In this document: positions 16,911 through 21,336 of the stretch, piece by piece
Numbering within the stretch: position 1 is the stretch's first letter
Layout of the letters: the number at the start of each line of letters is the position of its first letter
Source: Synergistaceae bacterium
GTDB lineage: Bacteria > Synergistota > Synergistia > Synergistales > Aminobacteriaceae
Reading direction: 5' to 3'
DNA length: 36,850 bases
NCBI GenBank assembly: GCA_031280635.1
Contig: JAITGK010000034.1
Coordinates: 1 to 36,850, forward strand
Made by a program: the position numbers and the translations under genes
Notes under the pieces: generated by a model
Told to the model about the DNA's origin: nothing
The model's database searches: none
Seen by the model: the letters and a program-made list of their open reading frames with translations, nothing else

Positions 16911-17003
16911 AAAGCCGTTGGCTCTTTTATGCGCAAAGTTTTTGCCGTTCATATCCGGTTTTTGGTCTCTTATTTCCGCGCGTGATTGCGCAACCCGCTA
17001 TAT
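16911..17003 (+). repeat. dispersed ~90-bp repeat, full copy (plus orientation)
   Basis: Head AAAGCCGTTGGCTCTTTT, middle GCGCAAAGTTTTTGCCG, then GGTTTTTGGTCTCTTATTTCC and tail TGATTGCGCAACCCGCTATA. It matches the copies at 1935-2027 (reverse), 18441-18532 and 22719-22813 in order and spacing. It lies between two minus-strand genes, opposite to their direction. Confidence 0.85.
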
Positions 17004-17028
17004 TACGCGCTCTGCTATAAAACATGCC

Positions 17029-17817
17029 CTAAGAGCGCTTTCGCGCGATAATTTGCATTTCTACGCACCACGATGGGACATGGGCGCCCAGCCAACAATT
17101 CCATTGCCACCACAAGCGGCAGTGCTCCAGCGGCTTTAGCACCCCGCCGGAGATAACGCGGAAACCGCGACACACTATGACGTCTACATTGGGGCACGCC
17201 TTTTTTAGCTCTTTGATAAAATCGCGTTTGGACCACGCCTGGATGTGCCCTCTAACTTTCTGAACCCTGAAAAGGCGATCCATTACGGGAACGACATGCC
17301 TTCGAATCAAGTGCAGTCCAGCCGGAAATATCGGGACTCCCACGACAAGAAGCCCGTCTGGACGCAGAACTCTTGACAGCTCAGACATGGCCAGACGGTA
17401 GTTTTTTAGATGTTCCAAGACCTGTTCACATACGACTACATCAAAAGAATTCGCCGCTAGGTCTTTCATACCGCAATTCAGGTCGATACAGTGATGCTTC
17501 CAGCCGGCGTGCTTGTAAACGAATTCGATGCCGTTTGGGTAAATATCGACGGCTTCGTACCGGATATACTCGCTTCCCGGATGAACCTCCGCATATCGCC
17601 TCAAAACGCCGTCGTTAGTCCCCACATCCAACAAATCCAGTGGCCTTCCGAGATTCTGATGATGTTCCCAAGCCCATCTCGCCAGGTCGCGGCCCAATTC
17701 GTAATACCTGGCCTGACGCAACCGGTAAGGCCTGGCATGGCCTCCCTCTATTCCAAAAGCATGATCCGTTTTCAAGTCCACTATGTCTTTACTTGTAATT
17801 TTTGTAATGGAAATCAT
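17029..17817 (-). CDS. class I SAM-dependent methyltransferase
   Basis: 262 aa from ATG 17817. The open frame extends to 17907, but those first 30 codons are translated from a dispersed repeat, so I chose the internal ATG. The SAM motif is LDLLDVGTNDGVLRRYA (motif I), followed by acidic YEAVDIYPNG (motif II), FDVVVCEQVLEHLKNYRLAMSELSRVLRPDGLLVVGVP (Methyltransf_11 core) and a C-terminal part rich in W and C. Cytosolic, no membrane segment. The Methyltransf_11 type acts on many small molecules and glycan or lipid precursors; the substrate cannot be told. It is an isolated minus-strand gene flanked by repeats on both sides, which suggests an accessory or acquired gene. Confidence 0.85.
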   Translation of the reverse strand: MISITKITSKDIVDLKTDHAFGIEGGHARPYRLRQARYYELGRDLARWAWEHHQNLGRPLDLLDVGTNDGVLRRYAEVHPGSEYIRYEAVDIYPNGIEFVYKHAGWKHHCIDLNCGMKDLAANSFDVVVCEQVLEHLKNYRLAMSELSRVLRPDGLLVVGVPIFPAGLHLIRRHVVPVMDRLFRVQKVRGHIQAWSKRDFIKELKKACPNVDVIVCRGFRVISGGVLKPLEHCRLWWQWNCWLGAHVPSWCVEMQIIARKRS

Positions 17818-17860
17818 TGGTTGTCCCACCCGTTGTATTGATTGTCGTTCCCGAACATTC

Positions 17861-17905
17861 TTAGAGCCGTTGGCTTTTTTCCATGCAAAGTTTTTGCCGT
17901 TCATC
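17861..17905 (+). repeat. dispersed repeat, truncated head copy
   Basis: TTAGAGCCGTTGGCTTTTTT followed by GCAAAGTTTTTGCCGTTCAT matches the first half of the ~90-bp repeat. The match stops abruptly near 17905. It lies upstream of the methyltransferase gene and supplies the last codons of the remnant ORF at 17861-18070. Confidence 0.8.
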
Positions 17906-18070
17906 AATGAGGCTCATGCGTTTGCCCCACTCCCACACGCATTGGGTCGTCCCGGACACGCGGACGCACACAACCAACGCGCCATCCTTTCCGGGACGCG
18001 GCACAACCACCGACACACGAATTTTGTAAGGGAATCCGTTTTTGCGAAAACGCGCCTTTTTTTGCGGCAC
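17861..18070 (-). pseudogene. gene remnant ending in a dispersed repeat
   Basis: The frame reads protein-like text (QKKARFRKNGFPYKIRVSVVV, then GALVVCVRVSGTTQCVWEWGKRMSL) and remains open upstream to a stop at about 18103-18105. The last roughly 14 codons come from the repeat copy at 17861-17905. Only a GTG start at 18070 with a poor Shine-Dalgarno is available. I recognise no family. The best reading is a decayed gene whose 3' end was replaced by the repeat. Confidence 0.35.
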
Positions 18071-18118
18071 GCCCTCGTGGGCTAAGGCGGGAAAGAAACG
18101 TTAAAGAAAGGGAACCGG

Positions 18119-18280
18119 TTAGAAGAACACAGTTACGCTTGCCGCTTGCCGCTTGCCGCTTGCCGCTTGCCGCTTGCCGCTTGCCGCTTGCCGCTTGCCG
18201 CTTGCCGCTTGCCGCTTGCCGCTTGCCGCTTGCCTAAAATTGTAGCATATATAATCAAAAAAGTCAAGCGTTAAAATCAT
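18119..18280 (-). CDS. small ORF containing a heptanucleotide tandem repeat
   Basis: 53 codons from ATG 18280. The start is preceded by AAGGAGGTG (18288-18296) with a 7-nt spacer and by an extended -10 promoter at 18339-18347, so translation signals are unusually good for so short a frame. The protein begins MILTLDFFDYICYNF. About four and a half copies of the heptapeptide RQAASGK follow, encoded by three heptamers each, then VTVFF and TAA. With 14 heptamers the frame stops just after the tract. By my reading, one more copy would extend it to about 125 codons (stop at 17904), and two more would stop it at once. It may be a phase-variable leader, a regulatory ORF, or a decayed gene start. Confidence 0.4.
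   Translation of the reverse strand: MILTLDFFDYICYNFRQAASGKRQAASGKRQAASGKRQAASGKRQAASVTVFF
18136..18234. repeat. heptanucleotide tandem repeat, 14 copies
   Basis: Fourteen perfect copies of CGCTTGC (plus one extra C), with no interruption. Perfect identity suggests recent expansion by slippage or active maintenance. It sits in a small minus-strand ORF and in the probable 5' leader of the methyltransferase gene. Confidence 0.97.
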
Positions 18281-18338
18281 GCTTTTTCACCTCCTTCTAT
18301 TTATTTTAGCTTGCACGCTAATTTTTTACTTTCACCAA

Positions 18339-18347
18339 ATTATAGCA
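18339..18347 (-). promoter_or_regulatory. extended -10 promoter reading toward the heptamer ORF
   Basis: On the minus strand TG-C-TATAAT is a perfect extended -10 box. No good -35 is visible. A short hairpin TTAGC/GCTAA (18306-18321) and AAGGAGGTG (18288-18296) follow in the predicted transcript before ATG 18280. The transcript would continue through the heptamers toward the methyltransferase. Confidence 0.6.
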
Positions 18348-18440
18348 TAAATTCTCCTTTTACCTTCCTCTTCATGAGCGCGGCGGAGTTCTCGCGTCCC
18401 GCTACTGGAGAATGAGCGAGACTTTGACATACTCTCATGA

Positions 18441-18532
18441 CTAGCTGGTCCTTTTATTCGCAAAGTTTTTGCCGTTTATATCAGGTTTTTGGCCTTGTAC
18501 TTTCCACGCGTGATTATGCAACCCGCTATAAT
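18441..18532 (+). repeat. dispersed ~90-bp repeat, full copy with degraded head
   Basis: The head hairpin has decayed (CTAGCTGGTCC), but TTCGCAAAGTTTTTGCCGTTTATATCAGGTTTTTGG and TGATTATGCAACCCGCTATA match the other copies. Its tail CTATA joined to AAT makes a perfect TATAAT (18527-18532), 42 nt before the DUF2339 gene, so this copy may supply its promoter. Confidence 0.8.
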
Positions 18533-18573
18533 AGCAAAGACAGGGAAGCATGATACAGAAGGGTGGCTTGAAA

Positions 18574-21336
18574 ATGGAGGTACTTCTGATAATCGTCGCG
18601 CTATGTTGGTTTTTCACCCCATTTTTCATCATGAGCAAAATAGGTGATTTGTCGGAACGACTCGAACGGTTCAAGGAGACCCTTGAGGAAAAGCTCACCG
18701 CCTCTGAACGGCGACTCCAGCAGACCTTGGAGGAAATACTCCGCGGAGCTCCTGGGGAGCCCCAAACGCGGGAGGCGGCTGTGGCCTCGCCGTTTGTTCC
18801 CGCCATGCCGCCTTCCGCCTCAGCCCCTTCGACGCCCGAAATTTTAGCCACCCCCATTCCTGAGATTTCTGAGAAAGTTTTTGAACCCGAGGTTTCCGCT
18901 CCTGCGATTCACGAAAGCGAGGTCCCGCTTGAGCCGGAAGTCCCCGGCGTCCTGGAGTTGGCGCTACGGCGGTTTCTATCGTGGATGCTGGCGGAGGGCA
19001 ACGTTTGGGTATGCGCGGGCGCGCTTTTGTTCTTCGTGGGGTTTGGACTCCTGTTTCGCTACGCGCTTCAGCTCGACCTCCTGACCCTGGAGATGCGCTT
19101 GGCGGCGGCGGCGCTCACGGGCATCGCTATGGTGTGGTTTGGCTTCCACATACGAGAGCGGCGACGCGTCTACGCCCTGATCCTGCAAGGCGGGGGCATG
19201 GGCGTGCTCTACCTGGTGGTACTGGGCGCGGCAAGGCTCAACGCGTCGGGGGGGCTGCCCATCCTGTCTCCGGCCTTCTCCGCCGCCGCCATGTTGGTTC
19301 TCTCCGTCTTTACCGTCCTGCTGGCCTGGCTTCAGGACTATGAGCCCCTCGCTCTCTTCGCCGTCATGGGCGGGTTTGCCGCGCCTATCCTAGTTAGCGT
19401 CAGCAGCCGAAACTACGTGGCGCTCTTTTCCATCTATACCCTGTTGAACTTCGAGGTTTTAGCGCTGACCTTCAAGCGCAACTGGCGGCTTCTGAACCGC
19501 GCGGCTTTCATCATCACCATCGCGGTGGGGACGGCCTGGGGATTCCGCGATTGGAGACCTGAGCTCTTCGCCTCCGTGGAGCCCTTTTTGGTGATATTCC
19601 TCGTGACCTACACCTTGGTGGCCGCCGCACGAGGGGATGGAACGCGCTCGCCCGACATTTTCCTGGCCTTGGGAGCGCCTTCCGGATTTTTTCTTTTGCA
19701 GATGAAGGCAGCGGAACACCTCCGGTATGGCATGGCTCTCACTTGCTTGGGTCTAGGTCTTTGGCACCTGCTCCTGGGCGCGTGGCCTCGTCGTCCCAGT
19801 CGCGCACTATCGCGCCTTCATATGGCGCTGAGTATTCTGTTCTCAAATCTGGTCATCCCCTATACCTTCGACAACACCATATCCTCCGCGGCTTGGGCCG
19901 CCGAGGGCGCGTTCCTGGTGGGGGCCGCGAGTCGCTGGGGCAGCCACAAAGCCCTTCTGGCGGGACTTGCCCTCCACGCTGGGGCGCTGTACCTCTACGG
20001 CCCCGAGATATCGCGGCTGGACTTGAGCGCGGCGGCGCGGCTGAGTCCGCTTTTCATCAGCGGCGTGTTGTTCGCGGCGTCTTGCTGGTTGAGCGGTTTT
20101 TGGGTCTCGCGCTTCCGTTTGTCCTATAAACCGTCCCTTAAAGGCTGGGAAGGGACGCTGAAGGAGAACGTGGGCAAATGGGGGAGCTTCCTGTCCTGGT
20201 CGTTCACAATTCTAGGTTCTCTGTGGTGGTGGTATACGATTTATGACCAGATCTCGCGCCTGGACGTGAACTGGCTTTTTCCAGCCGCCTGCCTCACGGC
20301 CCTGGCCGGAAGCTGGTTGTCCGTGAAGCTGGACTGGAAGGCCGCCCGGTTCCTGCTGCTCTGCCCTATCGCGTCGGTTCTCGCCTGGACGCCAATAGGC
20401 TGGAGTCAGTTGCTAGGCGTGACAATGCCGTTTTTCAGGAACAGCTTCTTGCAGACGATTGGGGAAAACGCCTGGGTGAACTCCGTGGCCTACGTGGTCT
20501 CCATCGGGGGTTCCCTCTGGCTTCTGCGCGGAACGGCCACGTTTTTTTCCCCCGTCACCTTGTTCATCGCCACGTGGAGCGGGTTGCCCTTGATCGAGGG
20601 AGCGGCGCGGCAGATGGGGCTCCGTTTCGGCCATGAATGGGGTCCGCTTTTTTCCCTCCTGCCCTTTTTCGGACTGCTTTTACTCCTGCGGCGTTTTTCT
20701 GAGAAAGAGGAGGTTTTTAGAAGACATCGTACGCCTTTAACCTGCGCCACGGGCATGGAACTGCTTTTCCTAACTTGGAGTTTTGTCAGAAGTTTTTCAA
20801 GCGCTGGAAGCGCCGTTCAGGAACTCTTCATACCCCTTCTGAATCCCCTGGAACTTTGGCAGGCGCTGATTTTGTTTTCTCTTGCCGTGTGGCGCCAAAT
20901 TTTCGCCGTAAAGGGCCAACCGGCGTGGCCGAAATGGACGCGACAAGGGTCGGCCCTGCTGCTTTTCGTGTGGCTGAACCAGGTCACGGCGCGGGGCGTG
21001 TGGTGGCATTTGCTTGATAGGAGGCATTACGATATGTGGGAGGTAGCGTTTACCTCGGAGTACCAGGCCGTCATCGCCATTGTATGGGGCGTCCTAGGGT
21101 TGTGGGCGGTTCTCTGGGGGCAGAAATTCCGCTCTCGTACTCTGTGGTTTTCCGGTTCGGGCCTTCTGTCCATTGACGTGGCGAAACTGTTGCTGGTGGA
21201 TTTGCAAGGGGCGGCAACGCTCACCCGCATTCTGGCGTTTCTCGTGTTGGGCGGACTGTTCCTCTTGATCGGCTGGGTCGCGCCCCTGCCGCCCAAGGAA
21301 GACGCGCAACAAAATAAAGGGGAGACGCCGTCATGA
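18574..21336 (+). CDS. DUF2339 polytopic membrane protein
   Basis: 920 aa from ATG 18574 (behind AAGGGTGG). ATG 18550 would add eight residues and cannot be excluded. A first membrane helix (LLIIVALCWFFTPFFI) leads into a coiled-coil segment (about 20-60, SERLERFKETLEEKL) and a Pro/Glu-rich linker. From about residue 135 on there are some 20 hydrophobic helices, typical of the DUF2339 family (about 600-1000 aa). The segments GNVWVCAGALLFFVGFGLLFRYA and YALILQGGGMGVLYLVVLGA are characteristic. Function in the family is unknown; an envelope role is commonly assumed. The stop overlaps the start of the DUF3999 gene (ATGA), a partnership seen in other bacteria. Confidence 0.87.
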   Translation: MEVLLIIVALCWFFTPFFIMSKIGDLSERLERFKETLEEKLTASERRLQQTLEEILRGAPGEPQTREAAVASPFVPAMPPSASAPSTPEILATPIPEISEKVFEPEVSAPAIHESEVPLEPEVPGVLELALRRFLSWMLAEGNVWVCAGALLFFVGFGLLFRYALQLDLLTLEMRLAAAALTGIAMVWFGFHIRERRRVYALILQGGGMGVLYLVVLGAARLNASGGLPILSPAFSAAAMLVLSVFTVLLAWLQDYEPLALFAVMGGFAAPILVSVSSRNYVALFSIYTLLNFEVLALTFKRNWRLLNRAAFIITIAVGTAWGFRDWRPELFASVEPFLVIFLVTYTLVAAARGDGTRSPDIFLALGAPSGFFLLQMKAAEHLRYGMALTCLGLGLWHLLLGAWPRRPSRALSRLHMALSILFSNLVIPYTFDNTISSAAWAAEGAFLVGAASRWGSHKALLAGLALHAGALYLYGPEISRLDLSAAARLSPLFISGVLFAASCWLSGFWVSRFRLSYKPSLKGWEGTLKENVGKWGSFLSWSFTILGSLWWWYTIYDQISRLDVNWLFPAACLTALAGSWLSVKLDWKAARFLLLCPIASVLAWTPIGWSQLLGVTMPFFRNSFLQTIGENAWVNSVAYVVSIGGSLWLLRGTATFFSPVTLFIATWSGLPLIEGAARQMGLRFGHEWGPLFSLLPFFGLLLLLRRFSEKEEVFRRHRTPLTCATGMELLFLTWSFVRSFSSAGSAVQELFIPLLNPLELWQALILFSLAVWRQIFAVKGQPAWPKWTRQGSALLLFVWLNQVTARGVWWHLLDRRHYDMWEVAFTSEYQAVIAIVWGVLGLWAVLWGQKFRSRTLWFSGSGLLSIDVAKLLLVDLQGAATLTRILAFLVLGGLFLLIGWVAPLPPKEDAQQNKGETPS

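Follow-up and report, generated by a model that had tools for sequence, protein, structure and literature searches.

A heptanucleotide array within a dispersed leader module as a candidate phase-variation element in Synergistaceae

We find that a perfect heptanucleotide array in a Synergistaceae bacterium lies within a leader open reading frame (ORF), directly behind a near-consensus promoter, and belongs to a stereotyped 5′ module that recurs at surface-glycan genes across the family. The array probably acts as the hypermutable element in a contingency (phase-variation) module. For the family this phase-switch reading is well supported by the comparison of sequences, through the anatomy of the module, its reading frames, its recurrence, the genes it accompanies and the differences in copy number between orthologues and between paralogues. 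At the locus described here, upstream of a methyltransferase gene, a phase switch would take a less direct form.

The array and its leader ORF

The window, by which we mean the whole stretch of 36.9 kb that was analysed, contains one array of note according to Tandem Repeats Finder, at 18136-18234 (period 7, 14.1 copies, 100% match). The array and the elements around it are as follows.

17977..18360, minus strand: dispersed module, approximate extent in its own genome, from DNA search and alignment
18339..18347, minus strand: outer promoter P1, extended -10 TGCTATAAT, with the TATAAT hexamer at 18339-18344
18288..18296, minus strand: Shine-Dalgarno (SD) sequence AAGGAGGTG, kept in nearly all aligned module copies
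18119..18280, minus strand: leader ORF of 53 codons, MILTLDFFDYICYNF, then QAASGKR repeats, then VTVFF and a stop
18239..18267, minus strand: inner promoter P2, TTGACT-17-TACAAT, from a consensus scan
18136..18234, minus strand: heptanucleotide array, 14.1 perfect copies, CGCTTGC on the plus strand and GGCAAGC as read on the minus strand
17904..18135, minus strand: read-through frame 3′ of the array (CVLLT..PRGRAAK..), open in six copies
17029..17817, minus strand: class I SAM methyltransferase (Methyltransf_11/23), with its ATG at 17817, 319 nt past the array

The leader ORF starts with the ATG at 18280 on the minus strand. This analysis confirms what the earlier note had described, a perfect 14-copy tract inside a 53-codon ORF with a strong SD and an extended -10, and adds P2, which was absent from that description. 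P2 is a near-consensus sigma-70 promoter (score 10/12) lying over the opening codons of the leader ORF, and its -10 ends 4 nt ahead of the array. At P1, a -35 element, TTGACA, is additionally present in several other copies of the module.

When the copy number was changed in silico, 14 copies gave 53 codons with a stop 18 nt past the array, and 15 copies gave a leader ORF of 127 codons, close to the 125 or so of the earlier estimate. With 16 copies the ORF again has 53 codons and stops 4 nt past the array, in agreement with the immediate stop predicted previously; 13 copies likewise stop 4 nt past it. The heptamer unit is stop-free in every frame and encodes the same heptapeptide repeat whichever frame is used. 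Since the unit is 7 nt long and free of stops in all frames, only the exit frame shifts with copy number.

These features suggest the following mechanism. P1 would give a transcript that carries a strong SD and a start codon, from which ribosomes would translate a few codons and then the array. Slipped-strand mispairing would add or remove copies and so change the frame in which ribosomes leave the array; one frame of the three would read on, and the other two would soon meet a stop. The surface-glycan gene itself occupies the open frame in most relatives, which would make a classical ON/OFF switch. At the window's locus, ON would correspond to a translated leader and OFF to an untranslated RNA with polarity, perhaps together with an effect of array length on transcripts begun at P2 inside the array. 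Slippage in living cells, switching of expression and any effect on the methyltransferase are what we infer.

The array is not a product of chance. In its own genome of 2.84 Mb the exact three-copy pattern occurs in arrays only (contigs C18, C176 and C185), the reversed three-copy pattern has no occurrence, and a 227-kb sample of the genome, which together with searches of the genome made up our survey, holds no unit of 4-12 nt repeated more than three times. As the assembly is a draft of MAG-like character (2.84 Mb, 187 contigs, 8% contamination), the exact copy number of 14 may be an assembly consensus. Rfam returned nothing meaningful at the locus, with one below-threshold match to a eukaryotic snoRNA. 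Hairpin-driven instability was considered and rejected, because the array folds no better than shuffled sequences on either strand.

Recurrence of the module in the genome and the family

The earlier note treated the tract as standing alone within a single small ORF, a view that has to be abandoned: a DNA search revealed the array to be one copy of a dispersed module, with at least six copies in its own genome and more in the congener G001. Module paralogues lie on contigs C185, C176, C70, C35, C129 and C90; besides partial copies at other places there are array-less relics on C72, C84 and C83. The unit varies among copies (GGCAAGC, GACAAGC and GGCAGGC in the own genome; AGCAAGC and AGCAGGC in the congener) and the period is always 7. 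The arrays are essentially perfect while their flanks are 73-85% identical, which points to recent array turnover. In the alignment P1, SD, ATG and P2 are conserved across module copies. The 3′ ends are variable, and for that reason a transposon with fixed ends is unsupported.

Behind the array, no stop interrupts the read-through frame in any of six copies, and the indels in this frame come in multiples of three. The ratio pN/pS is 0.66-0.77 in all three post-array frames, and selection at the amino-acid level on the read-through leader was rejected on this ground; to judge from the alignments, it looks as if the openness of the frame is kept and the peptide sequence is not. On C185 the open frame runs straight into a polysaccharide export protein (Poly_export/SLBB), and on C129 it enters a small secreted protein. 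The congener's module likewise precedes a methyltransferase. All four complete copies of the window-type module (C18, C35, C129 and G001:C10) are OFF, which could be a sign of decay and, like the missing constraint on the peptide, counts against the phase-variation reading.

Two other elements were met during this survey. An inverted-repeat element with ends like GGGCAAACGCATGAG ... CATGCGTTTGCCC adjoins heptamer-module remnants on C84 and on C176 (about 240-390). Another dispersed element, intergenic and about 80-100 bp long, has the core GCGCAAAGTTTTTGCCGTTTATATCCGGTTTTTGGTCTCTTATTTCCGCGCGTGATTACGCAACCCGCTATAAT and more than 30 copies in the own genome, including 18451-18533 and 16924-17005 of the window; it is MITE-like, with one promoter-shaped end.

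In a phylum-wide search, four copies of RRCARGC were found in 12 of 188 genomes. Genera of Synergistaceae share one layout, in which an extended -10 (P1), SD, start codon, P2 -10 abutting the array, heptamer array and gene follow one another. Arrays are joined in one frame to Poly_export/SLBB, WbsX, Acyl_transf_3, GT1, GT2, GT8, DUF4422, ATP-grasp and Bac_transf genes, and they precede MBOAT acyltransferases (in two genera), methyltransferases, Synerg-CTERM surface proteins and other secreted proteins. In genus g16 the unit CGAACAG, first met in the reversed-pattern control search, stands at GT1, GT2, DUF4422, ATP-grasp, methyltransferase and Poly_export genes, and these arrays have the P1-type layout too. 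Of the 29 arrays surveyed, 20 are abutted on the repeat strand by the -10 of a sigma-70 promoter that scores at least 10/12, and at another 3 a 12/12 promoter points in from the opposite side; these counts include paralogues and are therefore not all independent, and several genera with unrelated spacers do provide independent cases. Random positions reach a promoter score of 10/12 with a frequency of 0.0018. At arrays in two other families (G072 and G123) no abutting promoter was found; in one of them (G123:C1:789400-791600, 979-1164) a (CAACATT)7 tract runs directly into (CAACAGG)19, with no adjoining promoter. Some copies in other genera, judged by eye, had the appearance of a small non-coding RNA made of promoter, array and terminator, an interpretation that was dropped because the genes are mostly fused to the array.

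The same architecture emerged when the search pattern left the repeat unit unspecified (TTGACAATG-N13-15-TAYAAT; 50 sites read). A perfect heptamer tandem follows 21 of the 26 sites with an SD, compared with 2 of the 24 without one, and at least 13 different heptamers, plus one pentamer, occupy the same position. The pentamer, TCAAG in four copies near the start of G112:C106, is the sole other period in this set, and three does not divide it either. Upstream of 16 of the 21 array sites there is a P1-type -10 (background 0.21), and the genes behind the arrays include GT1/GT4, GT2, GT8, Bac_transf, Acyl_transf_3 and others. At the 24 loci where a long gene follows, the gene's frame stays open for 236-478 codons past the array, and both other frames meet a stop within 28. 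An upstream start in the gene's frame is found at 6 of these 24 loci, and at 7 of 28 once G088, G091:C200 and two G094 loci are added. Both phases are thus present, 7 of the 28 loci being in frame and the rest out of frame, a scatter to be expected of a switch caught in random phases.

Copy number differs both between loci, among paralogues, and between species, among orthologues. GT8 orthologues (44-49% identity) that share one unit carry 5.6 (OFF), 13.4 (ON) and 6.6 (OFF) copies. GT4 orthologues (69-72% identity) have different heptamers, CGCGACA, AGCCAGA and CGAACGC (loci L202, L210 and L214), at one position past the start codon. Two paralogous modules of genome G005 (C7 and C35) have 14 and 8 copies, with upstream bases identical at 59 of 60 positions, and tandem paralogous polysaccharide-export genes (G094:C15, 2385-4087) carry 5 and 4 units, one being ON and one OFF.

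Comparison with known repeat systems

The system in the window is best filed as a variant of the SSR contingency loci. In Haemophilus influenzae hmw1A and hmw2A, a heptamer SSR overlaps the -10 of the P2 promoter, and its expansion lowers expression (PMC8262952). The Synergistaceae arrays resemble these loci in that a heptamer abuts or overlaps the -10 of P2 and is carried in the 5′ end of the transcript of a surface gene, and in that paralogues differ in copy number (PMC8262952; PMC2651432). However, HMW has a second promoter past the array and a reported graded effect rather than one on the frame, whereas the Synergistaceae have an SD and ATG before the array, the gene frame after it, and a unit sequence that varies by locus. 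Frame-switch SSRs of H. influenzae include tetranucleotide loci and, as a heptamer candidate, (AACAACC)n at a TonB-dependent-receptor homologue (PMC2651432). Shared with such frame-switching loci are the non-triplet repeat in an ORF, the one open frame of three and the surface functions; in the Synergistaceae, in contrast, heptamers are standard family-wide, the unit is free, and a consensus promoter lies in the first codons.

Many dispersed heptamer arrays close to start codons are also a feature of Beggiatoaceae, where TAACTGA direct repeats of one fixed sequence stand just 5′ of the start codon and are proposed to be bound in the control of translation (PMC4679880, which also treats heptamer repeats in cyanobacteria). 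The window's array departs from this pattern, since its unit is CGCTTGC, the unit varies by locus and the array stands downstream of the start. Cyanobacterial STRRs are a further case of heptamer tandem repeats in bacterial genomes; we know of no comparable arrangement of SD-ATG, promoter and gene among them.

The methyltransferase and alternative explanations

At the window's locus the 15-copy frame of 127 codons ends 86 nt short of the methyltransferase start and no frame reaches this gene, so that any coupling would be indirect; an effect of the array would fall on the leader, through polarity, coupling or the transcript, and not act through fusion. A sequence scan revealed no intrinsic terminator between the array and the methyltransferase, and a consensus scan of 17700-18600 gave a single sigma-70-type promoter and no second one with a -35 reaching into the distal end of the array. 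The neighbours of the methyltransferase are housekeeping-like genes with no glycan cluster; a DUF2339 protein is encoded in the neighbourhood of the array. In common with contingency loci, the window copy has a long perfect non-triplet repeat whose copy number sets the reading frame. A switched gene in the post-array frame, as seen on C185 and in many relatives, is missing here, and because the methyltransferase lies outside that frame the window copy is a leader-type variant and not a plain contingency-locus member. The genes of the family are mostly glycan or surface genes, and that of the window is a predicted methyltransferase. The phase switch proposed in the earlier note is strongly supported by the family, with its SD-ATG-heptamer arrangement at surface-glycan genes, one open frame and both phases; at the window, where the methyltransferase is unfused, its bearing on the gene is more doubtful.

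The window copy might be a relic, that is, a duplicated module upstream of an unrelated methyltransferase, whose array still slips and controls nothing here. The dispersal of the module, its variable 3′ ends, the array-less remnants on C72, C84 and C83, the lack of a frame reaching the methyltransferase and its housekeeping-like surroundings would all fit this possibility. However, the machinery up to the array is intact in the window copy, with SD, ATG, the P1 -10 and P2 conserved, the read-through frame has stayed stop-free with indels of 3n in six copies, and the congener's module also precedes a methyltransferase. We consider a relic possible but rather doubtful; indirect control of the methyltransferase, through polarity or coupling and perhaps also an HMW-like length effect on P2 transcripts, is somewhat more likely, though not established. 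Such a length effect could also act without any frame switch, if transcripts start at P2 and have a 5′ UTR whose length and composition depend on copy number, giving graded expression of the methyltransferase. The score of P2 (10/12), the promoters abutting 20 of 29 arrays against the background of 0.0018, the methyltransferase's own start and the hmw precedent, where the heptamer overlaps the P2 -10 and expansion lowers expression (PMC8262952), speak for a transcriptional tuner of this kind. Yet the genes of most relatives have no evident start of their own past the array, so a P2 transcript would hardly be translatable, the SD and ATG ahead of the array have been conserved, and unit lengths besides 7 would serve equally well; we give transcriptional tuning no better chances than a relic.

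At fused loci a transcript from P2 would be without an upstream start codon. Arrays start 0-5 nt past the -10 of a consensus promoter, their period and place locked and their unit sequence free, and the first copy would roughly cover the distance from the -10 to the transcription start (about 7 nt). This has led us to a more speculative and unlikely suggestion, that initiation at P2 drives both the birth of the repeat and its slippage, P2 being a built-in promoter of mutability and not of expression. Neutral growth of a simple repeat without function, or an artefact of assembly, is very improbable: the assembly is a draft and several contigs terminate within arrays, but many other arrays are spanned by contigs, one of them on a contig of 829 kb (G115:C1), and the place near P2 and SD-ATG, the gene class and the period are all non-random. 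Equally hard to defend is an array of RNA- or DNA-binding sites read by a repeat-binding regulator, of the Beggiatoaceae TAACTGA or cyanobacterial STRR type. Unit length, tandem layout and leader position are alike (PMC4679880), but the unit varies freely among loci, even at orthologous genes, which a fixed site would forbid, and the array stands past the start codon, not before it. The phase-variation reading remains the one that we regard as probable.

A search of full-text literature, with subscription journals mostly outside its coverage, found nothing relevant on Synergistota or Synergistetes together with phase variation. The loci described here point to a large, apparently undescribed repertoire of surface-glycan phase variation in Synergistaceae, outside the classical pathogens, in which one stereotyped 5′ module would be used throughout. 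This module raises the questions of how many surface states a population may hold, why the unit has seven bases and why the array starts at the -10, and it offers a simple sequence signature by which further loci may be located.
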